Shown: in pieces, positions 2,042 to 42,065 of the stretch | Layout of the letters: each line of letters opens with the position of its first letter | How positions within the stretch are numbered: the stretch's first letter is position 1 | DNA from: Alphaproteobacteria bacterium | Lineage (GTDB): Bacteria; Pseudomonadota; Alphaproteobacteria; Acetobacterales; Acetobacteraceae | DNA length: 64,000 nucleotides | NCBI GenBank assembly: GCA_017307285.1 | Contig: JAFKFI010000050.1 | Location: forward strand, 1 to 64,000 | Direction of reading: 5' to 3' | Made by a program: the position numbers and the translations under genes | Notes under the pieces: model-generated | What the model was told of the DNA's origin: nothing | The model's database searches: none | Seen by the model: the letters and a program-made list of their open reading frames with translations, nothing else

Positions 2042-2544
2042 AATCCCTACCCTCACCCAGCACAATTCTAGCGGATCCGACGCACTCCACCGTCCCCTTC
2101 TCCGATCCCGTCGAACCGCTCCGCAAAGCAAGCCATGAACTCGCCGCCGAGCTCGTGCGCAGGCGCATCGCTGGGCCGCCGAGCACCGCGCCGCACTGCT
2201 GGGCGCGGAGCGGCCGATGCCATCCCGGATGTCCTTGATGTTGGCCGTCACCCCGCGATGCACGTCGTCCAGGATCGTGGCCACTGTGGAGGCAGGGCTG
2301 GAACACCTCTTGCCCTGCGATCGGCTGAAAGCGCCGGCAGAGCCTCCGGGGGCCGTTCCCGCCGAGGGAAGCGGTCGTTGGGCCGTGTACTATGAGCACG
2401 ACTTGCCGGTCGTACTTTCGCATGGCCGCCGCGGAGGGACGGGATGAAGCCGCCGGCGCACCTTTGAATGGGCTCGTTGCGGGTTGCCTATCGAAAGAAC
2501 TATTCTGGCGCTAAGTGAGGTTATTCGGCCGCTCAGGAGCTGAT
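2042..2544. other. Gene-poor stretch after tRNA-Ser
   Basis: About 500 bases between the tRNA 3' end and the phosphofructokinase start. Several ORFs of 70-150 codons cross it in different frames, but none has a recognisable domain, a ribosome binding site or a consistent composition. One minus-strand segment (VHRGVTANIKDIRDGIGRSA, near 2200-2260) looks somewhat protein-like and could be a decayed remnant. The right end carries one copy of the 13-bp repeat. Confidence 0.5.
2505..2517. repeat. 13-bp direct repeat, right copy
   Basis: Second copy of CTGGCGCTAAGTG, 27 bp upstream of the phosphofructokinase ATG; see the copy at 1925-1937. Confidence 0.5.
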
Positions 2545-3871: not shown

Positions 3872-4573
3872 TCATTCCCCCGCGAGTGCCGCGAGGGCGT
3901 CTCCGTCCTTTATGGCGATCAGTGAGCGGTTGATCGCAATGATGGCCTCACGCTGCATTTGGGTGAGCATTCGGCAGACCGTCTCTGTGGTCAGCCCGAG
4001 ATAGTCGGCCACGTCAGCTCGGCTCATCGGCAGCTCGATGCAAGGGCCAGAGGCGTCCGTCCGATGCGCCATCTCCAGAAGAAATCGGGCGATGCGCTCG
4101 GAAGCGGTCATTCGGCCGAGTGCGAGCACCCGTGCTTGCTCCGAGCGAAGCCTTTTTGCCGACATGGTCCGCAACCGGCGCGCAAAGTCCATATTGCGAT
4201 CGGCATAGGCTTCGAGGCTGCAGCGCAGGTAGCGGCGCAGGATCGCGGGACCAACCGCCTCCATGCCGAACGTGTGTTCGTTCAGCGCCTCCAACCCGAA
4301 GAAATCGCCGGGGAACAGGAATGCCCCGATCTGTCGCCGCCCATCGCTCATCAGGCGGACGGTTCTTAAGCAGCCGCTGATGACGAGGAAGCTATAGTCG
4401 GCCGGATCGGCCTGCGCGACCAGCACAGCGTCCCGCCCGGCACGAACGACGCTGGCGCGGATGCCCGCGAACTCCGGGCAGCGGGCTTTCACCAGGCCGG
4501 CCGGGCCTGACTCAACGACGCGCAACAGGGCTGCATTGCCGGTCGTAGGGCTCGGCTGCAAGTCGGTCAGCAT
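3872..4573 (-). CDS. fixK: Crp/Fnr-family regulator, FixK-like
   Basis: A 233-residue cytoplasmic transcription factor. It has an N-terminal cyclic-nucleotide-like beta roll (about 25-130, with FLFPGDFFGLEAL), a dimerisation helix, and a C-terminal winged helix whose recognition region is SRADVADYLGLTTETVCRML. FNR-type proteins carry an N-terminal cysteine cluster for a 4Fe-4S centre; here only one Cys lies in that region, so it resembles FixK and probably does not sense oxygen itself. The start at 4573 has GGGGGAG a few bases upstream; the frame runs back to 4615 without a better site. It is divergent from fixJ (gap about 100 bp). Five FixK/FNR-like boxes in the next 19 kb are its likely targets. 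Confidence 0.85.
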   Translation of the reverse strand: MLTDLQPSPTTGNAALLRVVESGPAGLVKARCPEFAGIRASVVRAGRDAVLVAQADPADYSFLVISGCLRTVRLMSDGRRQIGAFLFPGDFFGLEALNEHTFGMEAVGPAILRRYLRCSLEAYADRNMDFARRLRTMSAKRLRSEQARVLALGRMTASERIARFLLEMAHRTDASGPCIELPMSRADVADYLGLTTETVCRMLTQMQREAIIAINRSLIAIKDGDALAALAGE

Positions 4574-4640
4574 TTCTCCCCCAACACTGAACGGCTGCCG
4601 TAGCATTACGAGCAAGCAAATGTCGGTAAACTCCGTTACA

Positions 4641-4675: not shown

Positions 4676-5311
4676 GTGAGCTCGGGAACCGTCCACGTGG
4701 TCGACGACGATGCTTCCATCCGGGATTCGCTCCACGTCCTCCTGGAAGCATCCGGCTTCTCCGTTATGACCTACAAAACCGCGACGGAGTTTCTGATCGC
4801 AGCGCCGTTCATCGCCGGGGGCTGTGTTGTGACGGACATTCGGATGCCCCACCTGAGCGGGTTGGAGCTGCAGGAGCGCCTATCCTCGCGCGAAGTTCGT
4901 CTCCCGGTCATCGTGATGACCGGACAGGGTGACGTGCCTCTTGCGGTGCGCGCTATGAAAGCGGGCGCGGTCGACTTTCTGGAAAAGCCCTTCGAAGACG
5001 AACAGCTCATTGACGCGGTGGAACGCGCGCTGCAACAGAGCCGGACGGCCGAGGAATCGGAGCGCCTCGCTGCCGCCGCGACACGCAAGCTCTCGGAGCT
5101 GACGCCACGCGAGCGCGAGGTCTTTGAGCTGCTGATCGCCGGGCTGTCCACGAAGGCGATCGCGAACCGACTCAGCGCCAGCCCGCGCACGATCGAAGTC
5201 CATCGCGCGCGAGTCTTCGGCAAGCTCGATGCGGACACCCTGCCGGAAATCGTCCGCATCGCGCAAGCGGCGGGCGTACCGCCAATGAAGGAGACGCCGG
5301 TTGTCGAGTGA
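4676..5311 (+). CDS. fixJ: FixJ-family two-component response regulator
   Basis: A 211-residue response regulator. Residues 5-120 form the receiver, with DDD at 10-12, phospho-acceptor Asp54 (VVTDIRMP), Thr82 and Lys104 (LEKPFED). A LuxR-type helix-turn-helix occupies about 140-200 (LTPREREVFELLIAGLSTKAIANRLSASPRTIEVHRARVF). It starts at GTG 4676 with CGGAGG upstream. It overlaps the kinase gene that follows by 11 bases, so the two form one operon and a cognate pair. In rhizobia FixJ activates fixK; the divergent fixK-like gene here fits that wiring, though direct control is inferred. Confidence 0.9.
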   Translation: MSSGTVHVVDDDASIRDSLHVLLEASGFSVMTYKTATEFLIAAPFIAGGCVVTDIRMPHLSGLELQERLSSREVRLPVIVMTGQGDVPLAVRAMKAGAVDFLEKPFEDEQLIDAVERALQQSRTAEESERLAAAATRKLSELTPREREVFELLIAGLSTKAIANRLSASPRTIEVHRARVFGKLDADTLPEIVRIAQAAGVPPMKETPVVE

Positions 5312-6815
5312 AGGCACGTCGACCCCGCCGTATGTTCCGCCCGACCACGCGCGTTTCTGGCTCGGCACATTGACGGAATCGGCGGATGCGGGCTTTGTCG
5401 GCGCCGATCTGCGAGGCATCATCATCACCTGGAACCCCGGTGCGGAACGGATATTTGGCTACGCCCCCGCGGAAATATTGGGCCGCCCCATAGGCGTGCT
5501 GATCCCATCGGACAAACAGGCGGAAGAAGCTGCAAGCCTCGCTCGCATCGGGGCCGGCGAGACCCTGCGACTCGAGACGGAGCGGTTGTGCAAGGGCGGT
5601 CGCAGGACGCCGGTCTCGCTGACGATGGCGCCGGTGCTGAACGAGCGAGGCCATGCGATCGGAATTTCCGTCATCGCCCGCGATATGCAAAGGACGTTTC
5701 TGATCAACGCGGAAAACTTGCGCCGTGAGGCGGTCCTGCGCTCAATCCTCGACACAGTGCATGAGGCGCTCATCATCATCGGCGATGATGGACTGATAAG
5801 GTCGTTCAGCGGCACCGCAGAACGTCTGTTTGGCTATCCTTCGGAGGAGGTGATCGGGCACGACGTGAGCGTCCTCGTTTCCGAACCGCACCGAGAAAGG
5901 CAGGTGGCGTACATCGCGCGGTATCTTCAGACGGGCGAACGCCACATCGCCAGTATCGCGCGCGTCGTCGCCGGCCAGCGCAAGGACGGTAGCACGTTTC
6001 CGATGGAACTGTCGGTTGGCGAAATCGCCCTTCCTGGAGTCCGGCAGTTCACGGTGTTCATTCGCGACCTCTCGGAAAGTCAAGACCGCGAGCGCCGGCT
6101 GGCCGAGCTGCGGTCGGAGCTCGTCCATGTCTCGCGCCTGAACGACCTTGGCCAGATGGTGTCGACCCTCGCCCACGAGGTTGCACAGCCACTCACTTCC
6201 CTTGCCAATTATCTCAATGGTAGCCGCCGGCTATTGACAGCCGGCAAGGCGGAAGCGGCCGAGCAGGCGCTCGAGCGTGCTGCGGAACAGGCAAGCCGTG
6301 CGACCCGCATTGTCCAGAGCCTGCGGGATTTCGTGCGCCGGGGGGAAACGGAGAAGCGGTCAGAGGATCTGCGCAAGACCATCGAGGAGGCAAGCGCGCT
6401 TGCCATGCTCGGCATCGCGCACAAGCTCACGCTCGAGCTGCGGGTTAGCCCCGATGCCCGCCAAGCCGTGATCGACAAGGTGCAGATCCAGCAGGTCCTG
6501 TTCAACCTGATCCGCAATGCCGCGGAGGCGATGACGGGCGACGGAATGGTTTCGATAACGGTTATGCGCGTCGGCGAAATGGCTGAGATCAGCGTTGCCG
6601 ATACCGGCCCCGGGCTAGGCGAGGAGGTCGGGGCCAGGCTCTTTCAACCCTTCGTGACCAGCAAGCCGAACGGCATGGGGGTGGGTCTCTCCGTCTGCCG
6701 AACCATCGTCGAGGCACATGGTGGCCAAATATGGGCCGATCCCGCTCCGCTCCAGGGCGCCTTGTTCAAGTTCACCGTTCCGCTCCCGGCAGGCGATTCG
6801 GCAAAGACTGACTGA
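5301..6815 (+). CDS. FixL-like PAS sensor histidine kinase without haem histidine
   Basis: A 504-residue kinase with two PAS domains (about 20-130 and 142-262), a HisKA helix with phospho-acceptor His292 (AHEVAQPL) and a C-terminal HATPase domain (N-box IRNAAEAM; DTGPGLG; GMGVGLSV). The second PAS is FixL-like (ASIARVVAGQRKDGSTFPM), but the position of the FixL haem-ligating His is Gln201 (codon CAG at 5901) in EPHRERQVAYIARY, while the nearby conserved Arg is kept (Arg221). No membrane segment is visible, so it is probably cytoplasmic. It starts at TTG 5301, overlapping fixJ by 11 bases, with AAGGAGA 7 bases upstream. It likely phosphorylates the upstream FixJ; the signal is unknown. Confidence 0.85.
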   Translation: MSSEGTSTPPYVPPDHARFWLGTLTESADAGFVGADLRGIIITWNPGAERIFGYAPAEILGRPIGVLIPSDKQAEEAASLARIGAGETLRLETERLCKGGRRTPVSLTMAPVLNERGHAIGISVIARDMQRTFLINAENLRREAVLRSILDTVHEALIIIGDDGLIRSFSGTAERLFGYPSEEVIGHDVSVLVSEPHRERQVAYIARYLQTGERHIASIARVVAGQRKDGSTFPMELSVGEIALPGVRQFTVFIRDLSESQDRERRLAELRSELVHVSRLNDLGQMVSTLAHEVAQPLTSLANYLNGSRRLLTAGKAEAAEQALERAAEQASRATRIVQSLRDFVRRGETEKRSEDLRKTIEEASALAMLGIAHKLTLELRVSPDARQAVIDKVQIQQVLFNLIRNAAEAMTGDGMVSITVMRVGEMAEISVADTGPGLGEEVGARLFQPFVTSKPNGMGVGLSVCRTIVEAHGGQIWADPAPLQGALFKFTVPLPAGDSAKTD

Positions 6816-11846: not shown

Positions 11847-12698
11847 TTAACGCCCCTTGCCGCCGTTTCGTGCGGCCGGCCAGGCACGTTCGGGGACGAA
11901 TTTGTACGGATATTCCGGTTCGGTGTAGCCGTGCGGCTCCTGGCGCTTGGGCAGCTTCACCTTGTCGCGCGGAACCGCCTCGTACGGGATGTGACGAAGG
12001 AGGTGCGAGATGACGTTGAGGCGTGCGCGCCGCTTGTCATCGGAACGGACGACGTACCAGGGTGCCCATGCCGTGTCGGTCGCCTTGAACATCTCGTCCC
12101 TCGCGCGCGAGTAATCATACCAGCGGCTGTAGGACTTCAGGTCCATCGGCGACAGCTTCCAGATCTTCCTGCCGTCGTCGATCCGCCCCTCGAGGCGGCT
12201 CGTCTGCTCGGCCTCAGTGACCTCCAGCCAATACTTGATGAGGGTGACGTCGGACTCGATCATCGCCTTCTCGACGCCGGGGATCATGGCGAGGAACTTC
12301 TGCGCCTGCTCCTCGGTGCAAAATCCCATCACGCGTTCTACACCGGCACGGTTGTACCAACTCCGATCGAAGATCACGATTTCACCTGCCGCAGGCAGAT
12401 GCGGGATGTACCGCTGCGCGTACATTTGAGACTTCTCGCGCTCGGTCGGCGCCGGAAGCGCCACAACACGGAAAACACGTGGGCTGACACGCTCGGTGAT
12501 CGCCTTGATGACCCCGCCCTTCCCTGCCCCGTCCCGGCCCTCAAACACGATGCAAATCTTGGCGCCTTTGTGAACGATCCATTGCTGGAGCTTGACGAGC
12601 TCGACATGGAGCGCCGCGAGCTCGCGCTCGTAGTCCTTGCGTTTCAGTCGCCCATTCGGCTCATCGTCGATTCGGCTTTCCGTGCGCTTCGACTTCAT
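11847..12698 (-). CDS. ppk2: Polyphosphate kinase 2 family protein
   Basis: A 283-residue single-domain PPK2. It transfers phosphate between polyphosphate and nucleoside diphosphates (or monophosphates, depending on class) in the cytoplasm. Motifs are Walker A EGRDGAGKGG, DRSWYNRAGVERVMGF as the Walker B/lid region, and SPMDLKSYSRWYDYSRARDEM. The length fits class I enzymes. It follows the coiled-coil gene at 12722 on the same strand with a 23-bp gap, probably sharing the promoter near 13290 with its FixK-like box. It may regenerate ATP or GTP from polyphosphate when respiration stops. Confidence 0.92.
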   Translation of the reverse strand: MKSKRTESRIDDEPNGRLKRKDYERELAALHVELVKLQQWIVHKGAKICIVFEGRDGAGKGGVIKAITERVSPRVFRVVALPAPTEREKSQMYAQRYIPHLPAAGEIVIFDRSWYNRAGVERVMGFCTEEQAQKFLAMIPGVEKAMIESDVTLIKYWLEVTEAEQTSRLEGRIDDGRKIWKLSPMDLKSYSRWYDYSRARDEMFKATDTAWAPWYVVRSDDKRRARLNVISHLLRHIPYEAVPRDKVKLPKRQEPHGYTEPEYPYKFVPERAWPAARNGGKGR

Positions 12699-12721: not shown

Positions 12722-13237
12722 CTATGCGTCGGGCGCGTTCTTGGGCCAGGAGAAGAACAGCCCGATATCGCCAGGCCGTCCTTCCTTGTAGTTCAGAATG
12801 CGCGCCGAGAACTGGAAGCCACCCGGCTTCAGGTTGGTCTTCCAATAGTCGTACACGACGCGCCCACCGGCCGGAAGTGTCGCAATCCATGCCGGTTCCG
12901 CGTCGGCCTGCGGCTCCTTCGGCCTGTTGATCGGAGGCAGGTCGGCATTGATGATGGCGCGCCCGCTATCCGAGCAGAAGGTGCTCGGAAACGAGGTGAG
13001 CTGCAGCTCCGTCTCGCCACGGTCGAAGGCGCGCCGAATGCGGTCGAGCACGACGCGGACCTTGTCTTCATCGAGCTGAAAATCCTCGAGCCGCTTCTTG
13101 AATGCGGCCAGTTCCTCGCGCTCCCGTTGCTTGAGCTGCTCCTCCGCCTCCCGCTCCTGCCGCCGCCGCGCCTCACGCTCAGCGAACAGCGACGCGAGAG
13201 ACAATCCCAAGTCCGACGTGCCCGACATTGGACGCAC
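12722..13237 (-). CDS. Hypothetical protein with N-terminal coiled coil
   Basis: A 171-residue protein. Residues 15-60 form a highly charged coiled coil (EREARRRQEREAEEQLKQRE), and the rest is a mixed domain ending NYKEGRPGDIGLFFSWPKN. No signal peptide or catalytic motif is visible. The start could be GTG 13237 or ATG 13228; both have purine-rich sequence upstream. It is the first gene of a probable two-gene operon with ppk2 and lies 51 bp from a FixK-like box. Its function may be linked to polyphosphate, by context only. Confidence 0.7.
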   Translation of the reverse strand: MRPMSGTSDLGLSLASLFAEREARRRQEREAEEQLKQREREELAAFKKRLEDFQLDEDKVRVVLDRIRRAFDRGETELQLTSFPSTFCSDSGRAIINADLPPINRPKEPQADAEPAWIATLPAGGRVVYDYWKTNLKPGGFQFSARILNYKEGRPGDIGLFFSWPKNAPDA

Positions 13238-13340: not shown

Positions 13341-14591
13341 TCACCGACCTACCTCCCCGGTCAGCGTTTCGTATCCGTCGGGTTGCGCAAAGATTGGCGG
13401 CCTCTTGTGCCACACCGGGCCGTGGTGGCCTTGCGCATATCCATACTCGAACAACGCCTGCATGTAGGCTGTATCGAAATTCTGCTTGTGTGGCGCTGTG
13501 AAGTCTTGTCCGATATAGGCCAGGTTGTAATCCACGCCGTCGCGTTGTGACGTAAAATAGATCCGCACTACGTCGTTGTACCCACTATAGTGGATCATCG
13601 TTGCGATTGCTCGGCCGGTGATACTTAGCAGCCGCCGGTCGGTGGAAGCCCATTCGGGGTCCAGGCGTGCGTTGCGGATTACGTAAGCGGTGCGCTGGCG
13701 CGCATGCTCTTTCGCACGCAAATTTACCGCTTCGCCTACGGCGCTAGGAATCAGGAAGGTCTGGGCCACTGCCCCACCGTCAACATGCATTTCCTGGTAT
13801 TGATGCCCATCGAGCTCGACGTCGATCAGCACGGGAGGAAAGGCGCCGGGGACGGACGCCGACGCAAGCAGGAGTTTGCGGAACAGATCCAGTGCGCCGG
13901 GGCGGCCGCTCGCAGCGATCGCACCGATATTCCAGATCACTGGACGTTGTGCGTCGAGATTGGTCGTGCCGATCAGCAGCAGGCGCCCCCGCTGATACTC
14001 CCGCGCGATCTCGTCGAGCATCCGCTCATTCGCGTATCGCGATATCAGGCGAAATAGAGGATCGGTGCCGGCCAGCGCATCGCTGAACACCGCGCTCGGG
14101 ACCCATCGTTCCTCGTACACATCGGCCGGACCAATCGTCGTGTAGACCTCCCGCAGTTGCGCATCATACGACGGACCGAGAAAGGCGAACGGTGCGATCA
14201 GAGAGCCGGTGCTGATGCCGGTGACGAGCTTGAACTCCGGCCGGGTCCCCACTTCCGACCACCCCACCAGCAGCCCCGCGCCGAATGCGCCGTTATCAGA
14301 GCCGCCTGAGAGCCCGAGATAGCTGGCGGGCGCCAACACGCTCGACGGATTCGCTGCCCGCTCGCGCTCCAACGCCGCCCGCGCCTCCCGCACCATCGCG
14401 GGGCCGTCGGTATCGGCCCAGAACCGGGCATTCGGAATACCGAGCGGCTGTGCGCGCTGGGCTGCCTCGGTGGGTACGGCGGCCAAGCGAGCGGGAGCCG
14501 CACACCCCGCCATCCCTCCGAGCAGGAACAGCGCCGCTACCGCTCGCCACCGGGTGGGGCGCAACGTCAGCCAAATGAACGTGTCGCTCAT
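13341..14591 (-). CDS. Patatin-like phospholipase lipoprotein
   Basis: A 416-residue patatin-fold lipid acyl hydrolase. A lipoprotein signal ends in the lipobox GMAGC (Cys30), so it is probably membrane-anchored in the periplasm. The oxyanion loop is GLSGGSDNGAFGAG (93-106), the nucleophile elbow GISTG (Ser127), and the catalytic Asp lies in VDGGAV (Asp271). These make the Ser-Asp dyad complete. The ATG overlaps the acetate kinase stop (ATGA), making it the last gene of the DUF3141-pta-fabI-ackA operon. A role in releasing fatty acids from membrane lipid during the same stress is inferred from position. Confidence 0.85.
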   Translation of the reverse strand: MSDTFIWLTLRPTRWRAVAALFLLGGMAGCAAPARLAAVPTEAAQRAQPLGIPNARFWADTDGPAMVREARAALERERAANPSSVLAPASYLGLSGGSDNGAFGAGLLVGWSEVGTRPEFKLVTGISTGSLIAPFAFLGPSYDAQLREVYTTIGPADVYEERWVPSAVFSDALAGTDPLFRLISRYANERMLDEIAREYQRGRLLLIGTTNLDAQRPVIWNIGAIAASGRPGALDLFRKLLLASASVPGAFPPVLIDVELDGHQYQEMHVDGGAVAQTFLIPSAVGEAVNLRAKEHARQRTAYVIRNARLDPEWASTDRRLLSITGRAIATMIHYSGYNDVVRIYFTSQRDGVDYNLAYIGQDFTAPHKQNFDTAYMQALFEYGYAQGHHGPVWHKRPPIFAQPDGYETLTGEVGR

Positions 14592-15784
14592 TCTCCCGCG
14601 CCGGTCTCGAAAGCGTGGAGAGTATCGAATGTGTGCTGTGCGATCATGCGCTCCTCGTCGGTGGGGATTACCCAGGCCGAGACGCGGGATCTTTCAGCGC
14701 TGATGCGGCCGGCTCCGGCTTCGTTTCGAGCGGCGTCCGGCTCAAGACCGAGCCAGGCACAGCCCGTCATGACGCTGGCGCGCGTCATAGGATCGTTCTC
14801 GCCGATGCCGGCGGTAAAGACGAGCGCGTCGACCCCACCGAGCGCGGCGGCCATCGAGCCGATCTCGCGCACGATACGGTTGACGAAAAGCGCGATCGCC
14901 TCGGCAGCGCTCGCGTCAACGGAAGCGCGCAGCGTGCGCATGTCGGACGATATGCCGGACACGCCGAGCAGACCGGAGCGATGATATATGAGATCCTCGA
15001 TCGCTCGCGCATCCATGCCTTGCTCGTCCATCAGGTAGAGCAAGACGCCCGGATCGATCGCGCCGCAACGTGTGCCCATCATCAGCCCGTCGGCAGCGGT
15101 GAATCCCATCGTGCTTGCCACGCTGCGACCGTCTAACACCGCGCAGAGACTTGCGCCGTTGCCGAGATGCGCGATCACCACGCGCCCGCCGGCAAGCTCG
15201 GGCGCGACGGCGCGCAGGCGGGAGGAGACGAACTCGTATGACAATCCATGAAAGCCGTAACGGCGAACACCCGCCTCGGAAAACGCGCGGGGGATCGCGA
15301 AGGCCTGTGCGACCCAAGGCTGCGAGAAGTAGAAAGCGGTATCGAAGCACGCCACCTGAGCGATGTGCGGCGCGGCATCGGCGATCACCCGGATCGGCGC
15401 AAGGTTGTGCGGCTGATGCAGCGGCGCGAGCGACACAAGCGCGCCGAGTGCGTCGACAACGCCGGGTTCCACCCGCAAAGGGGCGGCAAACCGCGTTCCG
15501 CCATGCACGACGCGATGGCCGATGGCCGTCACTCGTGCTCCGCCGAGCAATTCCTGGCACGTCCGCAGGATCTGCAGCGTTGCCGCCGCGTGATCCAGCT
15601 CATTCGCCTTCCAGCCTTGCTCGGCAAGCGTTCGGCCCGCCGCGTCCGAAACCTTCAACTTCGGTGCGACCCCGATCGCCTCGATCTGACCGCGCAGCCG
15701 CAGCGGCAGATCGTCGCCGGCTCCGTAGATCGCGAATTTGATGCTCGACGATCCGGCATTGAGCACGCCGAGGCAGCCCTGCAT
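14588..15784 (-). CDS. ackA: Acetate kinase
   Basis: A 398-residue acetate/propionate kinase: acetyl phosphate + ADP to acetate + ATP. The family start (VLNAGSSSIKFAIY, Asn9), TAIGHRVVHGG, the HLGNGASLCA phosphate loop, DGLMMGTRCGAIDPG and FTAGIGEN are all present, so the enzyme looks intact. The ATG at 15784 is chosen because the family N-terminus starts there; the frame runs back to 15916 inside fabI. It lies 19 bp after fabI and its stop overlaps the patatin ATG. Together with phosphoketolase (23329) and Pta it forms the ATP-yielding acetate branch. Confidence 0.95.
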   Translation of the reverse strand: MQGCLGVLNAGSSSIKFAIYGAGDDLPLRLRGQIEAIGVAPKLKVSDAAGRTLAEQGWKANELDHAAATLQILRTCQELLGGARVTAIGHRVVHGGTRFAAPLRVEPGVVDALGALVSLAPLHQPHNLAPIRVIADAAPHIAQVACFDTAFYFSQPWVAQAFAIPRAFSEAGVRRYGFHGLSYEFVSSRLRAVAPELAGGRVVIAHLGNGASLCAVLDGRSVASTMGFTAADGLMMGTRCGAIDPGVLLYLMDEQGMDARAIEDLIYHRSGLLGVSGISSDMRTLRASVDASAAEAIALFVNRIVREIGSMAAALGGVDALVFTAGIGENDPMTRASVMTGCAWLGLEPDAARNEAGAGRISAERSRVSAWVIPTDEERMIAQHTFDTLHAFETGAGE

Positions 15785-15803: not shown

Positions 15804-16583
15804 TCAGGCGACGATATTCGCGCCGCCGTCGACATAGACGGTGCCGCCAGTGACCCGCCGCGCGAATGGCGTCGCGAGATAGGCGCAGGTGAAGCCGACA
15901 TCCATGATGTCCACAAGCTCCCCGATCGGCGACTTCTGTGCCGCTTCGTTGAGCAGCAGCTCGAAATCCTTGAGTCCCGACGCGGCGCGCGTCTTCAGCG
16001 GCCCTGGCGAGATAGCGTGGACCCTGATGTCCGAGGGGCCGAGCTCGAACGCGAGATAGCGGCACGCCGCCTCCAACGCCGCCTTCACTGGTCCCATCAC
16101 GTTGTAGTTCGGAACGACGCGATTGGCTCCGTAGTAGCTCATGGCGAACATCGTTCCCCCCTGGCTCATCAGCGGCGCGGCAAGCCGGGCCATGCGGATG
16201 AAGGAGTGGCAGGAAACGTCCATCGCCTTCGCGAATCCCTCGGCCGAGCAGTCGAGCAGGCCGCCCTGCAAATCTTCTTTCGGAGCAAAGGCGATCGAGT
16301 GGACGAGGATGTCGAGCTTGCCCCATTCGGCGCCGATGCGTTCAAACACCGCTTCGAGCTGTCCAGGCGCTGCGACATCCAGCGGGGCGGTGATCGTCGC
16401 CTCCAGCTCCTTGGCGAGCGGTTCGACGTACGGACGGGCCTTCTCGTTCAGCCATGTGATCGCCAGCTCCGCGCCGGCGGTGCGAAACGCCTTGGCGCAG
16501 CCATACGCAATCGAATGCTCGTTCGCGACGCCGACGACGAGCGCCCTGTGGCCGGTAAGCACGGGGCGGATTTGATCGCTCAT
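15804..16583 (-). CDS. fabI: Enoyl-ACP reductase (NADH), FabI type
   Basis: A 259-residue classical FabI. It reduces trans-2-enoyl-ACP in the last step of the fatty-acid elongation cycle. Visible are the cofactor loop GVANEHSIAYGCA (18-30), HSIAFAP (95-101), the catalytic Tyr-x6-Lys (Tyr160, Lys167 in NYNVMGPVKAAL) and ISPGPLKTRAASG. Its presence inside an acetate-forming operon is unusual: the housekeeping copy normally sits elsewhere. A role as an electron sink (fatty-acid synthesis consuming NADH) is inferred. The upstream pta frame overlaps this gene by 242 bases. Confidence 0.93.
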   Translation of the reverse strand: MSDQIRPVLTGHRALVVGVANEHSIAYGCAKAFRTAGAELAITWLNEKARPYVEPLAKELEATITAPLDVAAPGQLEAVFERIGAEWGKLDILVHSIAFAPKEDLQGGLLDCSAEGFAKAMDVSCHSFIRMARLAAPLMSQGGTMFAMSYYGANRVVPNYNVMGPVKAALEAACRYLAFELGPSDIRVHAISPGPLKTRAASGLKDFELLLNEAAQKSPIGELVDIMDVGFTCAYLATPFARRVTGGTVYVDGGANIVA

Positions 16584-17553
16584 GTGAATGCCCTATCGGA
16601 TTGCGGCGGCGGCGGCGGCGCGCATCCGCGACAAGTACCGCGACGGCGCAGGATGCCAGCCGGGTGATCTCGGAATCGGCGCGGCTCGTCAGGATGATCG
16701 GCACGCGCGCGCCGAGAATGATGCCGGCCGCATCCGCGCCCGCCAAAAATGTGAGGCTCTTGGCGAGCATGTTGCCCGCTTCGAGATCGGGGACGACAAG
16801 CACGTTGGCGCGGCCTGCCACAGGTGACTTGATCTGCTTGATCGCCGCCGCCTCTATGCTGATCGCGTTGTCGAGCGCGAGCGGTCCGTCGAGCACCGCC
16901 CCAGTGATCTGCCCGCGATCGGCCATCTTGCAGAGCGCAGCGGCCTCGATGGTGGACGGCACCTTGGGGTTTACCGTCTCCGTCGCGCTGAGGATCGCGA
17001 CCCGCACCTCCGGCGCGCCAAGCGCGTGCGCGAGGTCGATCGCGTTCTGCACGATGTCGATCTTCTCCTCGAGGCTGGGTGCGATATTCACCGCCGCGTC
17101 AGTGATGATGAGCGCCTGATCGTGTCCCGGCACATCCATGACGAAGCAGTGGCTGATGCGCCGCGCCGTGCGAATGCCGGTCTCGCGTGCCACGACGGCG
17201 CCCATCAGCTCATCGGTGTGCAGGCTGCCCTTCATCAGCGCTTCGGCGCGCCCGGCGCGGACGAGCTCGACGGCCTTCGCTGCGGCATCATGGCTGTGCG
17301 AGGCCTCGACGCGCTCGAACGGCGCAAGATTGACCTCGGCGAGTCGGGCCACCGCTTCGATCTTCGCAGGCGGCGCGACCAGGATCGGAGTGATCAAACC
17401 GAGCCGAGCCGCCTCGATCGCGGCTTGCAGCGGCACTGCGTTGCAGGGATGGGCGACGGCGGTGACGATCGGCGGCCGCGCTCTGGCCGCCGCGATCAGC
17501 CGCTCGTACTTGTCATGCGGCGCGCGCGGTGTGGCGGAGCTGGCGTCAGGCAT
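16342..17553 (-). CDS. pta: Phosphate acetyl/butyryltransferase, C-terminus frameshifted
   Basis: A single-domain phosphotransacetylase (acetyl-CoA + Pi to acetyl phosphate + CoA). The family domain covers residues 15-312 (VMDVPGHDQALIITDAAVNIAP; LDGPLALDNAIS; GARVPIILTSRADS). After VLVADA the frame enters six Arg codons made of (CGC)6 and then runs out of frame through the first 242 bases of fabI, adding about 85 Arg-rich shadow residues. In the neighbouring frame the same repeat reads Ala codons and stops at TAG (16593-16595), 9 bp before the fabI ATG, as expected for a normal gene end. A one-base slip in the repeat is likely. The start overlaps the DUF3141 stop by 8 bases. Confidence 0.85.
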   Translation of the reverse strand: MPDASSATPRAPHDKYERLIAAARARPPIVTAVAHPCNAVPLQAAIEAARLGLITPILVAPPAKIEAVARLAEVNLAPFERVEASHSHDAAAKAVELVRAGRAEALMKGSLHTDELMGAVVARETGIRTARRISHCFVMDVPGHDQALIITDAAVNIAPSLEEKIDIVQNAIDLAHALGAPEVRVAILSATETVNPKVPSTIEAAALCKMADRGQITGAVLDGPLALDNAISIEAAAIKQIKSPVAGRANVLVVPDLEAGNMLAKSLTFLAGADAAGIILGARVPIILTSRADSEITRLASCAVAVLVADARRRRRRNPIGHSHERSNPPRAYRPQGARRRRRERAFDCVWLRQGVSHRRRGAGDHMAEREGPSVRRTARQGAGGDDHRPAGCRSAWTARSGV

Positions 17554-19720
17554 GCGCCGGCTCTTTGCGGGCGGCGGCCGGTGTCTCGGCCTCGAACAAC
17601 GGTTCGATCTCCTGGAGACGGCGGCGGCCTTCCGAGTCGAGCGGACCGGTGGCGCCGACTACCCGGCGCAGCGCTTCCAAGGCGGCGCGACGTGGCGCCT
17701 GCTCGCGCGGCAGCAATTGGGGGATCGCCCGGATCGCCCGCCGCTCGTCGAGCCGGACAAGCAGATATTGCGTCCGTAGCACGTCCTTGAGCTGCGTCAG
17801 CGAGAGCCGACGGTCGGCGGGTTGCGCGGCGCGCACTGCCTGGATCATCCCAAACCCGCGCTCATCGGCGGTGCCGCCCGGAAGGCGGACATAGATTAGA
17901 GCGCGCAGCGCCGCCTCGGCAATCCCCCCGTGCTCGAACTGCATCTCGAGTTCGGCGCACAGCCTCGCCTTCGTGGCTTCGCGCGCGAGATCGTGCTCGA
18001 TGCGGCGCGGCGCGAGCGGCACCTGCGGACCGAGCCCAAAGGCGGCTTGAAGCACCGGCGAGCCGTAGGTATTGAGGAAGAACCACTCCATCCAGGCGTC
18101 GCGCGTTCGCCCGCAGAGATCGAGCCATGACGTGATCTGCTCCGATGCCGCCCTCTCCATCTCGACGAACGGATTGTCTGCCGGCACCGGCTTGCGATTG
18201 GCGCGCACTTGCCCCGCTAGCGATTTGACCGGCTGCATCGCCGGATTGTGGTCCGAGAAGAGCGCGAAGCGCAGCCTGTTAGGATGCAGCCGCCGCTGCA
18301 GCTCGGCGCCCTGCTCGGTCGTCAGTGCGCGCACCGTGGGGGCGGCCAGCGTGCGATAGAGGCCGAGCGCGGACTCTGAGACGCGCGCCGCGGTCGCGAA
18401 GCGGAGATCGTCCTCGGGCGTATTGCCGCCAAGCGCACGGATATGATTGAGGGTCCGGGTTTCGAGGCGGAACAGGTATTTTCCCTGGATAAGCTCGGGA
18501 TGCTCGATCCCCGGCTCGACCTCAGTGATGACCGCCTCGTAGAGCCCCGGCGGAAGCACATTGATCATCTCCATGCAGGCCGCGAATTCGCCATGCTCCT
18601 TGGTCGCGACCTTGCCGGAGACGAAGATGCCCAGATGCCCGATTGTCTGGTGCAGCGTGTAAACCACCGTCTGGCCATTTTCCACGATCTCCCGCTCGTG
18701 TTCGTAGAGATCGGTGATCCAGCCGAGCGCCTGCTGGGGTGGCGTGATGTTGTCGCCCCATGAGCAGAACACGATGATCGGCGAACGGATGTTGCGCAGA
18801 TCGACGCGCAGCCCGTCGGAGGTGCGGATCTCGCCGGTCGCGAGCTTGTTGCCGACGAACAGATTGTCGGCGATCCACTGCATTTCCGCGGCGTTCAGCA
18901 GCACCGGATTGCCCCACCACGCCTCGAAGTCGAGAAAGCGCCCGGCCTCCTGATCGATGTTGGCGTAGACGTTGTACGGCTTCTGCCAATACGTGTTGGC
19001 CAGATTGAGCGATTCGAAGTTCGCGACCAGGTCGGCACCGTCGAAGATGCCGTTGCCGACATCGCCGGTGAACGCGGTCAGCCATGTGCCGCCCAGCACA
19101 CCGCCCAGGTAGCGCATAGGGTTCTTGCCGCGCACCCCGGCCCAGTAGGAGAGCGGCGAGCCCGCGAGCATGATCGGCCCGACGAGTTCCGGCCGCATCG
19201 CTGCCATCATCATGATCTGCCAACCCGCCTGACAGTTGGCGACGATCACCGGTTTGCCATCGGCCTCGGGATGCAGTGCCGCGACTTCCTCGACGAACAC
19301 CGCCTCCGCGCGGCAGACATCCTCGATCGTCTGTCCGGGAACCGGCTCCGGAAGAAAGCCGACGAAGTAGCAGGGGTGCCCGGCGGCAAGTGCCACGCCG
19401 ATCTCGCTCTCCTGCTTCATCCCGCCAATGCCCGGCCCGTGACCCGCGCGCGGATCGACCACGATGAAGGGCGGCTTGCTGAGGTCCACCTGCACGCCCT
19501 CTGGCGGCCGGATGCGGACCAGAAGGTAATTGACGGGACGCGGCAGGGTACGACCATCGCGGATGAGCTCAGTCCCGAACATCAGCACGTTCGGCACCTT
19601 GCTCGCCTTCTGCACGAGATAGTGGTTGCCGCGCTCGCGCAGCACATCGAGCAACAGGACCGAACGCTGGCACGCATCGATCCAGTAGTCGCACATCGCC
19701 TGCAAGCCATTCAGCAACAT
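17546..19720 (-). CDS. DUF3141 alpha/beta-hydrolase-fold protein
   Basis: A 724-residue DUF3141 protein, a family related to poly(3-hydroxyalkanoate) synthases. The N-terminal half holds an alpha/beta-hydrolase core: PPFIVVDPRAGHGPGIGG, then the nucleophile elbow VANCQAGWQ with Cys in the PhaC-like position, and GDNITPPQQALGWI and the HQTIGHLGIFVSG His region. The C-terminal third is helical and unassigned. The ATG at 19720 is preferred over GTG 19804 because AGGAGC lies just upstream. It is the first gene of the five-gene operon and about 100 bp downstream of a strong FixK-like box. Whether it polymerises, hydrolyses or transfers acyl groups is unknown. Confidence 0.85.
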   Translation of the reverse strand: MLLNGLQAMCDYWIDACQRSVLLLDVLRERGNHYLVQKASKVPNVLMFGTELIRDGRTLPRPVNYLLVRIRPPEGVQVDLSKPPFIVVDPRAGHGPGIGGMKQESEIGVALAAGHPCYFVGFLPEPVPGQTIEDVCRAEAVFVEEVAALHPEADGKPVIVANCQAGWQIMMMAAMRPELVGPIMLAGSPLSYWAGVRGKNPMRYLGGVLGGTWLTAFTGDVGNGIFDGADLVANFESLNLANTYWQKPYNVYANIDQEAGRFLDFEAWWGNPVLLNAAEMQWIADNLFVGNKLATGEIRTSDGLRVDLRNIRSPIIVFCSWGDNITPPQQALGWITDLYEHEREIVENGQTVVYTLHQTIGHLGIFVSGKVATKEHGEFAACMEMINVLPPGLYEAVITEVEPGIEHPELIQGKYLFRLETRTLNHIRALGGNTPEDDLRFATAARVSESALGLYRTLAAPTVRALTTEQGAELQRRLHPNRLRFALFSDHNPAMQPVKSLAGQVRANRKPVPADNPFVEMERAASEQITSWLDLCGRTRDAWMEWFFLNTYGSPVLQAAFGLGPQVPLAPRRIEHDLAREATKARLCAELEMQFEHGGIAEAALRALIYVRLPGGTADERGFGMIQAVRAAQPADRRLSLTQLKDVLRTQYLLVRLDERRAIRAIPQLLPREQAPRRAALEALRRVVGATGPLDSEGRRRLQEIEPLFEAETPAAARKEPAHA

Positions 19721-19819: not shown

Positions 19820-19833
19820 TTGATCTAACTCAA
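19820..19833. promoter_or_regulatory. FixK/FNR-like box between divergent operons
   Basis: TTGATCTAACTCAA matches TTGAT-N4-ATCAA at nine of ten positions. It lies between the acetate operon (minus strand, from 19720) and the DUF3300 gene (from 19857) and could serve either or both. Confidence 0.65.
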
Positions 19834-19856: not shown

Positions 19857-21422
19857 ATGCTATTCGCCATGAGAGCAAGCCGAACGTGGCTCGGATGCGC
19901 CTCGCGGCTCGCCGCGAGTTGCCTGATGCTTCATGCCGGCATCTTGCCTATGGCCAGCGCGCAGCCCGCCCCGCCCCCCGGTGCCGCGGCAGCCCCGACC
20001 GCGCAAGCGGGTTCGGCCTTCACAATCCAGCAGATCGACGCCCTGCTCGCGCCGATCGCGCTCTATCCCGACACGCTGCTGACGCAGATGCTGATCGCCT
20101 CCACCTTTCCCTTGCAGGTCGTGGCTGCGGCGCGCTGGCTGAAAGAGCCTGGGCATGCGGACCTGAAGGGAGACGCGCTGACCAAGGCGCTCGAGCCGCT
20201 CGACTGGGACCCAAGCGTGAAGTCGCTCATCCCCTTTCCGCAGGCACTCTCACAACTGGATAACAATCTCGAATGGACCCAGCAGGTCGGCTACGCCTTT
20301 GCCAACCAGCAAAAGGAAACGATGGACAGCATCCAGCGTCTGCGGCGCCAAGCTCAAGCGGAAGGCAATCTCAAATCCACTCCGCAGCAGGTGGTGCTTA
20401 CCGAGGGGACCGACGGCGCGGTCTCTGCCGCTGGCGCGTCAACGGGCGCGGGCGCTTCGTCAAGCAATACGATTGTCATTCAGCCCGCCGACCCAGACGT
20501 GGTCTACGTGCCGAGCTATAACCCGGCGAGTGTGTATGGCACCTGGCCCTATCCCGCCTATCCGCCGGTGGCAGCCTACCCCGCTCCGGTCTACATGCCC
20601 GGGACGGCACTGATGAGCGGGCTCGTCTTCGGAGCAGGTGTCGCGATCACTGCGGGGCTTTGGGGGTGGGCCGGCAGCAACTGGAACAACGGCAGCGTCA
20701 ACATCAATGCGAACCGCTGGAACAACATCAACGTCAACCGGGCGCGGACCGCTGCCAATACCTGGAGCCCGTCGCTCAACCGGGCCGGCGGGCGAACGCC
20801 AGCCAACCTGAGCCGGCCGCCGGCGGGGCCAGTCGGCCGTCCTGGGCGGAACAATGGCTTGCCGGCGAACGCAATAGGGCGACAGAGCGTCGGCGTTGCT
20901 CCCGGACTCGTGGACCGACCCCGTCCCCCGTCAGGAGCCGGCAATCTGCCGAACCGTCCCAATCTCAGCCCCGGAAGCCGTCCGGGCGGCGGCCAAGTTC
21001 AACGGCCCAGCGGAGGTCAAGGCCAGCGGCCGGGAGCCGGCCAGGGTCAACGGCCTGGCGGCGGTCAGGTCCAGCGCCCCGGCGGGGGCCAGGTTCACCG
21101 CCCTGGGGCCACACCCGGCCAGTTGCCGGCCCGTCAGCCGGGTCAAGGCGGCAGGCCGGGACCGAGTGCCGGGAACTTGCCACGCCAGCAGCCGGGTGGC
21201 TTCGGCGGACAAAGACCAAATCAGGGCGCTTTCGGCGGCATCGGCGAGGGCAATCGCGCGGCGGCTTACGGACAGCGAGGGATGCAGAGCAGGCAATTGG
21301 GCGGCGCGCAGCAGTTCGGCGGGCGCGGCGGCGGCGGCTTCCAAGGTGGAGGCGCGCCGCGTGGCGGCGGGGGAGGATTTAGGGGCGGTGGTGGCGGCGG
21401 TCGTGGCGGCGGACGACGATAG
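19857..21422 (+). CDS. DUF3300 exported protein with Gly-rich tail
   Basis: A 521-residue exported protein. A signal peptide (to about residue 35, ending PMASA) precedes the DUF3300 domain (about 55-270: QIDALLAPIALYPDTLLTQML ... DPDVVYVPSYNPASVYGTWPY). A short hydrophobic stretch (ALMSGLVFGAGVAITAGLWGW) follows. The C-terminal 220 residues are low complexity, with five octapeptide-like repeats of the form GxGQxQRP around 375-415, and the tail is nearly all Gly and Arg. The start may be ATG 19857 or 19869. It is directly followed by DUF2950, a frequent partner, and shares the FixK-like box with the divergent acetate operon. Function unknown; probably envelope-associated. Confidence 0.85.
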   Translation: MLFAMRASRTWLGCASRLAASCLMLHAGILPMASAQPAPPPGAAAAPTAQAGSAFTIQQIDALLAPIALYPDTLLTQMLIASTFPLQVVAAARWLKEPGHADLKGDALTKALEPLDWDPSVKSLIPFPQALSQLDNNLEWTQQVGYAFANQQKETMDSIQRLRRQAQAEGNLKSTPQQVVLTEGTDGAVSAAGASTGAGASSSNTIVIQPADPDVVYVPSYNPASVYGTWPYPAYPPVAAYPAPVYMPGTALMSGLVFGAGVAITAGLWGWAGSNWNNGSVNINANRWNNINVNRARTAANTWSPSLNRAGGRTPANLSRPPAGPVGRPGRNNGLPANAIGRQSVGVAPGLVDRPRPPSGAGNLPNRPNLSPGSRPGGGQVQRPSGGQGQRPGAGQGQRPGGGQVQRPGGGQVHRPGATPGQLPARQPGQGGRPGPSAGNLPRQQPGGFGGQRPNQGAFGGIGEGNRAAAYGQRGMQSRQLGGAQQFGGRGGGGFQGGGAPRGGGGGFRGGGGGGRGGGRR

Positions 21423-22379
21423 ATGATGAGGCGCAGATGGCCCCTGATTGCGTGTCTGGTGCTGGCCTCCCCTCTTGCGTGGCGCCCCGTTCCGCCGGCG
21501 AGTGCCGCGGAGCAAACCGGATTCAAGACGCCGGATGATGCCGTCGCGGCCTTGGTCGGAGCGCTGCGAAGTGACGATCGGGAAGCTTTGGCCAATGTGC
21601 TCGGGCCTGGTAGCGAGAACCTGGTGCACTCCGGCGACCCGGTGAAGGACCATCAGGAGGCGCAACGCTTTCTCGATGCTTACGGCGAGCGTCATACGCT
21701 CGTTCCCGAAGGACAGGACCGGATCTCCCTCCATGTTGGCGCGAACGATTGGCCGCTGCCGATCCCGCTGGTGCGCCACGACGGGAAATGGGTGTTCGAG
21801 TCACACGAAGGTGCACAGGAAATCGTGGATCGACGGATCGGTCGCAATGAGATCGCCGCGATCCGTTTCGCGTTAGCCTATGTGGACGCGCAGCGCGCCT
21901 ATTTCGACCTCTTCAAGGACGTAACCGGCAAGGGCCGGTACGCCATGCGTCTCGCCAGCACCCCCGGAAACTATGACGGTCTCTACTGGCCGCCCAACCC
22001 GGGCATTCCTGAAAGCCCGTTCGGCCCGCTGGTCCAGAGCGCGGTCGAGGAGGGCTATCCGGGCCAGGTCGAAGCTGGGAAGCAGATCCCTTACCAGGGC
22101 TACTATTACCGCGTCCTCACCGGACAGGGCCCTAACTCACCCGGCGGCGCGAGGAGCTACATGCACGGCGGCCTCATGACTGGCGGCTTCGGGCTGATCG
22201 CCTGGCCCGCGACGTACGATGCGTCGGGCATCATGACGTTTGTTGTCGACCAGGATGGGGTCGTGTTCCAGAGAGATCTCGGCGCCGACACGGGCGCGCG
22301 CGCGTCTGCGATCAAATCCTTCGATCCGGGACTCGACTGGACGCGCGTCGTGGTCGGGTCGGAGGCCAGCTCGCATTGA
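21423..22379 (+). CDS. DUF2950 exported protein
   Basis: A 318-residue periplasmic protein of the DUF2950 family. A signal peptide ends near PPASAAEQ, followed by the family opening GFKTPDDAVAALVGALRSDD, then ESHEGAQEIVDRRIGRNEIAAIRFALAYVDAQRAY and the conserved QGYYYRVLTGQGPNSPGGARSYM / GGFGLIAWPATYDASGIMTFVV blocks. It starts immediately after the DUF3300 stop, so the pair is cotranscribed. No enzymatic role is known to me; the constant pairing suggests a joint envelope function. Confidence 0.88.
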   Translation: MMRRRWPLIACLVLASPLAWRPVPPASAAEQTGFKTPDDAVAALVGALRSDDREALANVLGPGSENLVHSGDPVKDHQEAQRFLDAYGERHTLVPEGQDRISLHVGANDWPLPIPLVRHDGKWVFESHEGAQEIVDRRIGRNEIAAIRFALAYVDAQRAYFDLFKDVTGKGRYAMRLASTPGNYDGLYWPPNPGIPESPFGPLVQSAVEEGYPGQVEAGKQIPYQGYYYRVLTGQGPNSPGGARSYMHGGLMTGGFGLIAWPATYDASGIMTFVVDQDGVVFQRDLGADTGARASAIKSFDPGLDWTRVVVGSEASSH

Positions 22380-23328: not shown

Positions 23329-25734
23329 ATGCCGGACGTTCTTTCTCGCGACCAGCGCTCGCTGATTGACGCGTACTGGCGCGCGGCCAACTATCTCTCG
23401 GTCGGCCAGATTTATCTCTACGACAATCCTCTTCTGAAGCAGTCCCTGACGAAGGAGCACATCAAGCCGCGCCTCCTCGGACATTGGGGAACCACGCCCG
23501 GCTTGAATTTCATCTACGCCCATCTGAACCGGCTTATCACCAGCCGCGACCTGGACATGATCTACATCACCGGTCCCGGACACGGCGGCCCCGCGCTGGT
23601 CGCCAATGCCTACCTCGAGGGAACGTACAGCGAGGTCTATCCGAACATCTCGCAGGATGAAGAAGGCATGAAGCGCCTCTTCACGCAGTTCTCCTTCCCT
23701 GGCGGCATTCCGAGCCATGTCGCACCGGAGACGCCCGGCTCGATCCACGAGGGCGGGGAACTCGGGTACGCTATTTCCCATGCCTTCGGCGCCGCGTTCG
23801 ACAACCCCGACCTGATCGTCGCCTGCGTGGTGGGCGACGGAGAGGCTGAGACGGGGCCGCTGGCCACCAGCTGGCACTCGAACAAGTTTCTCAATCCGGC
23901 GACCGATGGGGCCGTGCTGCCGATCCTCCATCTCAACGGATACAAGATCGCCAACCCGACCGTGCTCGCGCGGATTAGCCATGACGAGCTCGAACATCTG
24001 TTCCGCGGCTATGGCTATACACCGTATTTCGTCGAGGGTGACGACCCCGGTACGATGCACGAGCTTATGGCGGCGACGCTCGATGCGGTGATGGACGAAA
24101 TCCAGCGCATCAAAGCCGTGGCGAAGCGAAGCGACTCTCCGGAACGCCCGCTTTGGCCGATGATCGTGTTCCGCACTCCGAAGGGATGGACCTGTCCGAA
24201 GGAGATCGACGGCAGGCGCACGGAGGGCTACTGGCGCGCGCACCAGGTACCGATGGGCGAAATGCACGAGAACCCGGCGCATGTGCGGATTCTCGAGGAA
24301 TGGATGAAGAGCTATCGGCCGGAGGAGCTGTTCGACCGCACTGGTCGGCTTCGCCCCGAGCTCGCCGGGCTTGCGCCCCGCGGCGCACGGCGGATGAGCG
24401 CCAATCCGCACACCAACGGCGGCGCCCTGCTACGCGATCTGCGGCTGCCGGATTTCCGCGACTACGCGATCAACGTGACGTCACCCGGCTCCGCGACGGC
24501 GGAGGCGACCCGGGTGATGGGCGCGTTCCTCCGCGATGTGCTAACGCTGAATGCCGAGGCGCGCAATTTCCGCCTGTTCAGTCCGGACGAAAACAACTCG
24601 AACCGGTGGCAGGACGCGCTGGAAGTCACCAACCGCGCTTGGATGGCCGAGATCGAGCCGTGGGACGACCATCTCGCTCCCGAAGGACGCGTGATGGAGA
24701 TGCTGAGCGAGCATCAATGCCAGGGCTGGCTCGAAGGCTATCTGCTGACCGGCCGGCACGGCTTCTTCTCGTGCTACGAGGCATTCATCCACATCATCGA
24801 TTCGATGTTCAACCAGCATGCCAAATGGCTGAAGGTGTGCAACGAGATTCCGTGGCGCCGGTCGATCGCCTCGCTGAATTATCTCCTCTCAAGCCATGTA
24901 TGGCGGCAGGACCACAACGGCTTCAGCCATCAAGACCCGGGCTTCATCGATCACGTGGTCAACAAGAAGGCAGAGGTCGTGCGCGTCTATCTGCCGCCGG
25001 ATGCCAATTGCCTGCTCTCGGTCACTGACCATTGCCTGCGCAGCCGCAACTACGTGAACGTCGTCGTCGCCGGCAAGCAGCCAGCGCCGCAGTGGCTCAG
25101 CATGGACGATGCGGTGAAGCACTGCACCGCCGGCCTCGGCATCTGGGAATGGGCCAGCAGCGATCGGGGCGGCGAGCCGGACGTGGTGATGGCGTGCTGC
25201 GGCGATGTCCCCACGCTGGAGACGCTGGCCGCCGTCGATCTGTTGCGGCAACACGCGCCGGAGCTGAAGGTCCGTGTGATCAACGTCGTCGATCTCATGA
25301 AGCTGCAGCCGCCGAGCGAGCACCCGCACGGGCTCCCGGATCGCGACTTCGACGCGCTGTTCACGACGGACAAGCCGATCATCTTCGCCTTCCACGGCTA
25401 TCCGTGGCTGATCCACCGGCTGACCTATCGCCGGAACGGACACGGGAACTTGCATGTGCGTGGCTACAAGGAGGAAGGGACGACCAGCACGCCGTTCGAC
25501 ATGTGCGTGATGAACGACCTCGACCGGTATCATCTCGTGGAGGACGTGATCGACCGCGTGCCGAATCTCGCGGTGCGGGCCGCCTACGCCAAGCAGGCGA
25601 TCCACAACAAGCTCATCGAGCACAAGGAATACATTGCTCGCCACGGCGACGATATGCCCGAGGTCGTTGGATGGTCCTGGGGACAAGTGACGGCTGGGCC
25701 GGCGGTGCGCTCGACGGAGGGCGACAATGTGTGA
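23329..25734 (+). CDS. xfp: Phosphoketolase (first copy)
   Basis: An 801-residue thiamine-diphosphate phosphoketolase that splits xylulose 5-phosphate (often also fructose 6-phosphate) with phosphate into acetyl phosphate and an aldose phosphate. Signatures are [15 protein letters not shown] at the start, [25 protein letters not shown], the ThDP/Mg loop [14 protein letters not shown] with [20 protein letters not shown] and [17 protein letters not shown]. It starts at ATG 23329 with CAGGAG upstream. It heads the operon xfp-HAD-GH65-MFS-glgP and sits under a FixK-like box. A second copy lies at 42066 (clearly homologous over its whole length). Confidence 0.95.
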
Positions 25735-25764: not shown

Positions 25765-26493
25765 ATGAGCGAGGGACCTCTCGCGGCGATCTTTGATGTG
25801 GACGGCGTGCTGGTCGATTCTCCGCACGAGCGCGCGTGGCGCGAGGCGCTGGCGGGCTTCGCCGACCCGGCGCGCTTCACGACTGCCTTCTACCAGGAAT
25901 ATGTCGCGGGCAAGCCCCGGATGGAGGGAGCGCGGGCGGTGCTGGAGCGGCTTGGCGGTCCTGGCATGGTCGCGCGCACGAACGAATACGCGGTCGCGAA
26001 GCAGGCGCTGATCGACCGGCTGATCGAGGAGGGAAGCTTCGAGGCATTCCCGGACGCGGTGCGCCTCGTCGCCAGGCTGCACGAGGCCGGACTCAAGCTC
26101 GCACTTGCATCGTCATCCCGCAATGTCGGCGCGATGCTGCGCCAAATACGGCTGCCGGATGGTCGCGCGCTGTTGCCGCTGTTCGCCGCCGATCTCAGCG
26201 GCCGCGAGGTGCCGCACGGCAAGCCGGACCCAGCGCTGTTCCTGCTCGCGGCCGAGGCATTGGGGATTGTTCCGGCGCGTTGCCTGGTCGTCGAGGACGC
26301 GCCGGCAGGCGTTCGTGCCGCGCGGAACGGCGGAATGACGGCTCTCGGCATCGCGCGGCTCGGGGACGAAATCCTGCTGCGGGAGGCGGGCGCCGATCTC
26401 GTGCTCACCAGCCTGGACAAATTGGATGTCGGTGCGCTGGCGAGCGGCGCGCTGCGTGCCTATCCCGCTTCGGAGGACGCACCGCATGCTTGA
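25765..26493 (+). CDS. pgmB: HAD-superfamily beta-phosphoglucomutase-like enzyme
   Basis: A 242-residue HAD subfamily IA protein. The nucleophile motif is FDVDGVLVDS (Asp11 and acid/base Asp13), the helical cap carries FYQEYVAGKPRMEGARAVLERLG, motif II is ALASSSRN, and motif III/IV are HGKPDPALFLLAAEALG and CLVVEDAPAGVRAARNGGM. This is the beta-phosphoglucomutase pattern: beta-glucose 1-phosphate to glucose 6-phosphate. The assignment is strengthened by the GH65 phosphorylase gene, which overlaps its end by 8 bases and would supply beta-glucose 1-phosphate. Confidence 0.88.
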   Translation: MSEGPLAAIFDVDGVLVDSPHERAWREALAGFADPARFTTAFYQEYVAGKPRMEGARAVLERLGGPGMVARTNEYAVAKQALIDRLIEEGSFEAFPDAVRLVARLHEAGLKLALASSSRNVGAMLRQIRLPDGRALLPLFAADLSGREVPHGKPDPALFLLAAEALGIVPARCLVVEDAPAGVRAARNGGMTALGIARLGDEILLREAGADLVLTSLDKLDVGALASGALRAYPASEDAPHA

Positions 26494-28771: not shown

Positions 28772-28807
28772 CCCGCGCTCGGAGCCAGGTGCGCCGAGGC
28801 GGGCAGG

Positions 28808-30028: not shown

Positions 30029-30053
30029 CGCGCTTTGACAAGCCGAGGAAGCG

Positions 30054-41988: not shown

Positions 41989-42065
41989 CGGCTATTTCAT
42001 CGCCGCGCGGCTTCCCAGCCAATCTTCCGCGTGCAAGCTCTCCCCGCAATCGCGGAGGTGTGCTG

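Follow-up and report, generated by a model that had tools for sequence, protein, structure and literature searches.

A DUF3141-pta-fabI-ackA operon in its alphaproteobacterial form and its probable link to FixK/FNR-type control

Genes for acyl-chain enzymes stand among genes for acetate formation in the 64-kb window analysed here (the whole stretch of DNA, from a member of the Acetobacteraceae), which raises the question of what these enzymes do at this locus and under which conditions they are made. In the initial annotation, the order DUF3141-pta-fabI-ackA-patatin was described as held together by overlaps or very short gaps, and it was proposed that acyl-chain synthesis may serve as an electron and carbon sink, rather than for membrane growth, with oxygen limitation as the setting.

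Operon layout and the pta reading frame

On the minus strand, the DUF3141, pta, fabI and ackA genes succeed one another at overlaps or operon-like spacing, as judged from Pfam and NCBIfam matches and ORF coordinates (Table 1). DUF3141 and pta overlap by 8 nt, ackA and the patatin gene overlap by 4 nt, and a gap of 19 nt separates fabI from ackA. The gene calls and the spacing therefore bear out the order given in the initial annotation, and this operon-like spacing suggests that DUF3141-pta-fabI-ackA may be a co-transcribed unit. The patatin gene, however, had been wrongly placed within 15804-19720 and lies outside that segment.

Table 1. Positions of the genes and candidate regulator-binding sites discussed, with the basis of each assignment.
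Feature	Position in window	Strand	Basis or remark
FixK-like CRP/FNR regulator	3872..4615	-	best PDB match FixK2 4i2o, E 3.9e-40
FixJ response regulator	4676..5311	+	NF006900 255.6 bits, barely over the cut-off of 255
FixL-like sensor kinase	5301..6815	+	best PDB match FixL heme PAS, E 1e-35
ppk2, polyphosphate kinase 2	11847..12698	-	TIGR03707 over cut-off
171-aa conserved protein	12722..13237	-	no Pfam/NCBIfam match
Patatin-like lipoprotein (predicted)	13341..14591	-	Pfam PF01734; lipobox-like LLGGMAGC
ackA, acetate/propionate family kinase	14588..15784 (about)	-	Pfam PF00871; TIGR00016 over cut-off
fabI2, second enoyl-ACP reductase, PRK07533 subfamily	15804..16583	-	FabI equivalog NF005717 452 bits, cut-off 337
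pta, small phosphate acetyltransferase, PRK11890 type	16593..17553	-	NCBIfam NF008852 507.9 bits, cut-off 413
DUF3141 protein, 724 aa	17546..19720	-	Pfam PF11339, 870 bits, 563/582 positions
FixK/FNR-type box TTGATCTAACTCAA	19820..19833		TTGA-N6-TCAA pattern; centre lies ~106 nt upstream of the ATG of DUF3141
DUF3300-DUF2950 pair, divergent from DUF3141	19857..22379	+	Pfam; neighbourhood comparison
FixK/FNR-type box TTGAGATAAATCAA	23224..23237		TTGA-N6-TCAA pattern; centre ~98 nt upstream of xfp
xfp, phosphoketolase (acetyl phosphate producer)	23329..25734	+	Pfam XFP domains; NF003619 1523 bits

The single-frame pta ORF of the window continues to 16342, which is 242 nt inside fabI and would add about 85 residues if real. 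Comparison of C-termini revealed that the pta genes of about 40 relatives stop about 10 residues past an AARR motif, after a short conserved tail, and where fabI comes next after pta in these relatives the pta stop mostly falls 4-20 nt ahead of fabI. Set against this short tail in about 40 relatives, the pta of the window is shifted in frame over its final ~8 codons, the shift lying at a CGC repeat and stemming from either an assembly error or a genuine frameshift. It touches the extreme C-terminus only and leaves the conserved domain (residues 11-317) intact. Two further Pta matches in the genome both lie within open frames of about 800 aa, which would fit fusions to malic enzyme rather than a stand-alone Pta. 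A second ackA is also present in the genome (L137, 1832-3892; G000:C139), where it immediately follows what reads as a universal stress protein gene.

The class of this Pta bears on a possible four-carbon branch, in which FabI2 would convert enoyl-CoA from PHB breakdown to butyryl-CoA, the PTA/PTB-type enzyme and the kinase would yield butyrate and ATP, and the DUF3141 protein would handle the hydroxybutyryl pool. The small PTA/PTB-type Pta reaches 269-313 bits on butyryltransferase models, below their cut-offs, and a fused enoyl-CoA hydratase (PhaJ)-Pta occurs in the same cluster in Burkholderia (PMC8231600), but among the NCBIfam models the protein exceeded the cut-offs for phosphate acetyltransferases only and the kinase belongs to the acetate/propionate family. 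We consider such a branch very improbable.

Related loci and published counterparts

A scan of genome contigs yielded 75 DUF3141 loci, mostly from Acetobacteraceae, Reyranella and other Alphaproteobacteria, and gene-order counts were limited to the 61 loci with enough downstream sequence. The exact order DUF3141-pta-fabI-ackA is kept in 32 of these and a same-strand fabI lies downstream of DUF3141 in 45; therefore, the arrangement is not a product of chance. DUF3141-fabI alone was found at seven loci and the order DUF3141-fabI-pta-ackA at three, and ppk2 comes next after ackA at five. Patatin was downstream of the operon at none of the 61 loci, so that it was rejected as a conserved operon part and is regarded as a local extra. 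Because of its lipobox-like sequence, the patatin-like protein probably acts outside the cytoplasm, and as a probable lipoprotein that is not conserved in the operon it makes the patatin step of the sink idea doubtful; the initial view of patatin as a working part of the operon is thus not supported. The conserved 171-aa protein encoded between the patatin gene and ppk2 turns up again in several relatives, close to DUF3141 or ppk2.

The operon is already known: it is the alphaproteobacterial form of the published orfA(DUF3141)-pta-ackA-fabI, with DUF3141-pta-ackA-fabI annotated on S. meliloti pSymA and present on a plasmid of Rhodobacter as well. The pSymA operon comprises the same four families, with DUF3141 first and close spacing, and a phosphoketolase gene lies a few kb from the operon in S. 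meliloti too; identity to the S. meliloti proteins is 61% for FabI and about 54% for DUF3141. In contrast to S. meliloti, where fabI is last, it is third here, and patatin and ppk2 follow the operon here. The Burkholderia sensu lato and Herbaspirillum clusters likewise contain a PHA-synthase-like gene adjoining pta, ack and fabI, with phaC-pta-ack-fabI clusters (groups D1/D2) described in Burkholderia (PMC8231600) and phaC2 in an operon with pta-ackA in Herbaspirillum (PMC8222739). The first gene of the Burkholderia clusters was classed as phaC and has 2-24% identity to the S. meliloti ORF (PMC8231600), whereas the first gene here is DUF3141. Expression of pta and ackA was increased more than 100-fold in NGR234 bacteroids (PMC3732241). 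The operon thus recurs across Alphaproteobacteria, and homologues of its pta and ackA are strongly upregulated in root-nodule bacteria.

A second enoyl-ACP reductase linked to DUF3141

FabI2 exceeded the curated FabI equivalog cut-off and carries the Tyr-X6-Lys motif as YNVMGPVK. A search for a second, housekeeping fabI, as called for in the initial annotation, found a housekeeping-type gene over the cut-off (G000:C141), flanked by what read as aroC and pdxH. This separate copy rules out that the operon fabI is the only one in the genome, and the proposed electron and carbon sink survives on copy number. FabI alone makes no chain, and no further fab or pha gene lies inside the operon. Among 200 genomes of the order, with DUF3141 scored as present at a match over 400 bits, operon-type FabI occurred in 39 of the 42 genomes with DUF3141 versus 17 of the 158 without it, an association whose p value (1.6e-24) overstates the evidence because related genomes are not independent. 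DUF3141 was located within 7 kb of 24 of the 58 operon-type fabI genes.

It is conceivable that FabI2 is a plain spare reductase, serving membrane lipids under stress or resistance to FabI inhibitors, and that its linkage to pta-ackA reflects shared timing. The canonical FabI motifs, the full equivalog match and the 43% identity to the genome's own housekeeping FabI would suit such a role. However, the linkage to DUF3141 is very strong and includes the loci with DUF3141-fabI alone, and FabI2 belongs to a distinct subfamily, being 76-88% identical to the operon FabIs of most relatives. We therefore regard a spare reductase as somewhat unlikely; it concerns the role of FabI2 and is compatible with low-oxygen control.

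A PhaC-like DUF3141 protein

The AlphaFold (AF2) model of the DUF3141 protein (pLDDT 86) contains a PhaC-like alpha/beta-hydrolase domain at about residues 30-390, followed by a helical C-terminal half. Its top PDB match was the PHA synthase PhaC (Z 22.8, 3.1 Å over 310 residues), and PhaC structures in general matched at Z 21-23 and 3-4 Å over about 300 residues, with lipases next at 19; Foldseek placed PhaC near the top too. A sequence search against the PDB gave no match, and the likeness to PhaC came from the fold search. The triad Cys163-Asp323-His362 is invariant in 55 sequences and in another set of 35, and in a profile comparison the Cys and Asp aligned with those of the genome's own PhaC, although the score was weak (E 0.0024, probability 12%). 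The earlier comparison of DUF3141 with PHA synthases that have a Cys nucleophile is thus supported by the predicted PhaC-like fold and the invariant triad.

Despite the shared fold and Cys-Asp-His triad, the DUF3141 protein was not filed as a PHA synthase, because it is without PhaC_N (its Pfam match is DUF3141 only), failed the curated models (22 bits versus 622.65 for TIGR01838) and has an added helical C-terminal half. Unlike in PhaC, the Cys lies in NCQAG and the GxCxG lipase box is absent, the sequence being ANCQAGW here and GNCQAGW in the consensus, with the small residue Ala at +2. Elsewhere in the genome there are two PhaC genes that have PhaC_N, and a third match is partial. No tested activity of a DUF3141 protein was found in the literature.

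FixK/FNR-type boxes and nearby regulators

The pattern TTGA-N6-TCAA occurs just twice in the window, at 19820 and 23224, and both boxes fit the FixK2 consensus TTG(A/C)-N6-(T/G)CAA (PMC9104804). Upstream of DUF3141, the pattern was present at 25 of 71 loci, compared with 1.2 expected from the same loci, and none of the other patterns tried was found there in the 71 loci, the looser TTG-N8-CAA form excepted. After the removal of similar upstream sequences, the box remained at 23 of 62 DUF3141 loci versus 30 of 257 neighbouring genes (p 1e-5), and some of these neighbours could share the regulon in view of their high rate; about 63% of the non-redundant relatives are without the exact box. Genome-wide, the strict FixK pattern occurs at nine places, most of them within coding sequence, so that the pattern alone does not define a regulon.

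A FixL-FixJ-FixK-like trio is encoded 12-16 kb from the operon; the genome encodes two clear CRP/FNR members, one of them the FixK-like protein of this trio. Neither the boxes nor the trio had been mentioned in the initial annotation, and both lend evidence to oxygen limitation as the setting. In the PAS domain of the FixL-like kinase (5718-6086), Gln occupies the position aligned with the proximal heme His; oxygen sensing by this kinase is doubtful because the usual heme histidine is missing. Ligand sensing by the kinase may have been lost or altered. Subunits of cbb3 oxidase, considered as a sign of micro-oxic respiration, were dropped because none exceeded the cut-off in this genome.

A FixK/FNR-type arrangement has a precedent in Bradyrhizobium diazoefficiens, in which the phosphoketolase-acetate kinase unit (xfp-ackA) is FixK2-dependent and has a box (PMC9104804). 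This unit, bll2518-bll2517, thus places acetyl-phosphate genes behind a FixK2 box, but no DUF3141, pta or fabI is listed in that transcription unit, unlike in the operon here. Taken together, these comparisons suggest, with a probability that we put at roughly 0.6, that the known operon is wired in this alphaproteobacterial form to a FixK/FNR-type activator; because of this wiring, it is probably made at low oxygen.

Alternatively, the operon could belong to a PhoB-controlled response to phosphate starvation, in which acetyl phosphate handled by Xfp, Pta and AckA would save or recycle phosphate and set the phosphorylation of response regulators, with oxygen being secondary. In S. meliloti, co-transcription of ORF-pta-ack-fabI and its induction by PhoB have been reported (cited in PMC8231600 and PMC5789663); moreover, ppk2 adjoins the operon in the window, and pta, ackA and phaC2 of Herbaspirillum respond to phosphate (PMC8222739). 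The S. meliloti operon, reported as PhoB-controlled (PMC8231600), differs from the one here in that it has no FixK-type box immediately upstream. FixK-type sites are enriched in the related loci, whereas the PHO-like repeat TGTCA-N6-TGTCA was found upstream in none of the 71; this search is powerless, however, because a pattern this crude fails to pick up the published S. meliloti operon as well. Control by PhoB in place of FixK/FNR seems to us quite unlikely.

Proposed working of the operon

If the operon is wired to a FixK/FNR-type activator, the FixK-like protein would bind both boxes (19820 and 23224), thereby switching on the operon and xfp, and Xfp, Pta and AckA would form ATP as an oxygen-limitation module. 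The best reading of the gene families and their linkage is that DUF3141 and FabI2 may constitute a linked acyl branch beside this ATP module. FabI2 would reduce an enoyl thioester with NADH, the acyl groups presumably being derived from acetyl-CoA, and the DUF3141 protein, to judge from its predicted fold and invariant triad, could transfer or polymerise an acyl or hydroxyacyl group via a thioester at Cys163. Patatin would be a local extra in this scheme. More specifically, and only tentatively, since we judge it unlikely as it stands, DUF3141 and FabI2 could form a dedicated low-oxygen two-enzyme system with an acyl or polyester product, in which NADH is reoxidised while Xfp, Pta and AckA make ATP. 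If this is true, bacteria that are regarded as respirers would have, in the DUF3141-FabI2 system, a route resembling fermentation. A definite low-oxygen hypothesis, with two named proteins to assay, follows from the conservation of the FixK-type box and the close linkage of DUF3141 to FabI2.

Two further observations concern the surroundings of the operon. The DUF3300-DUF2950 pair recurs in the vicinity of DUF3141, both in Rhodobacter CZR27 and in several relatives, and such genes have been reported to be induced in symbiosis (PMC4653623). In addition, the window contains genes for a diphosphate-dependent phosphofructokinase, a GH65 protein, a carbohydrate phosphorylase and a second phosphoketolase (2515-3825, 26426-32552 and 41937-44414), which read as a cluster of phosphate-bond-saving sugar metabolism.
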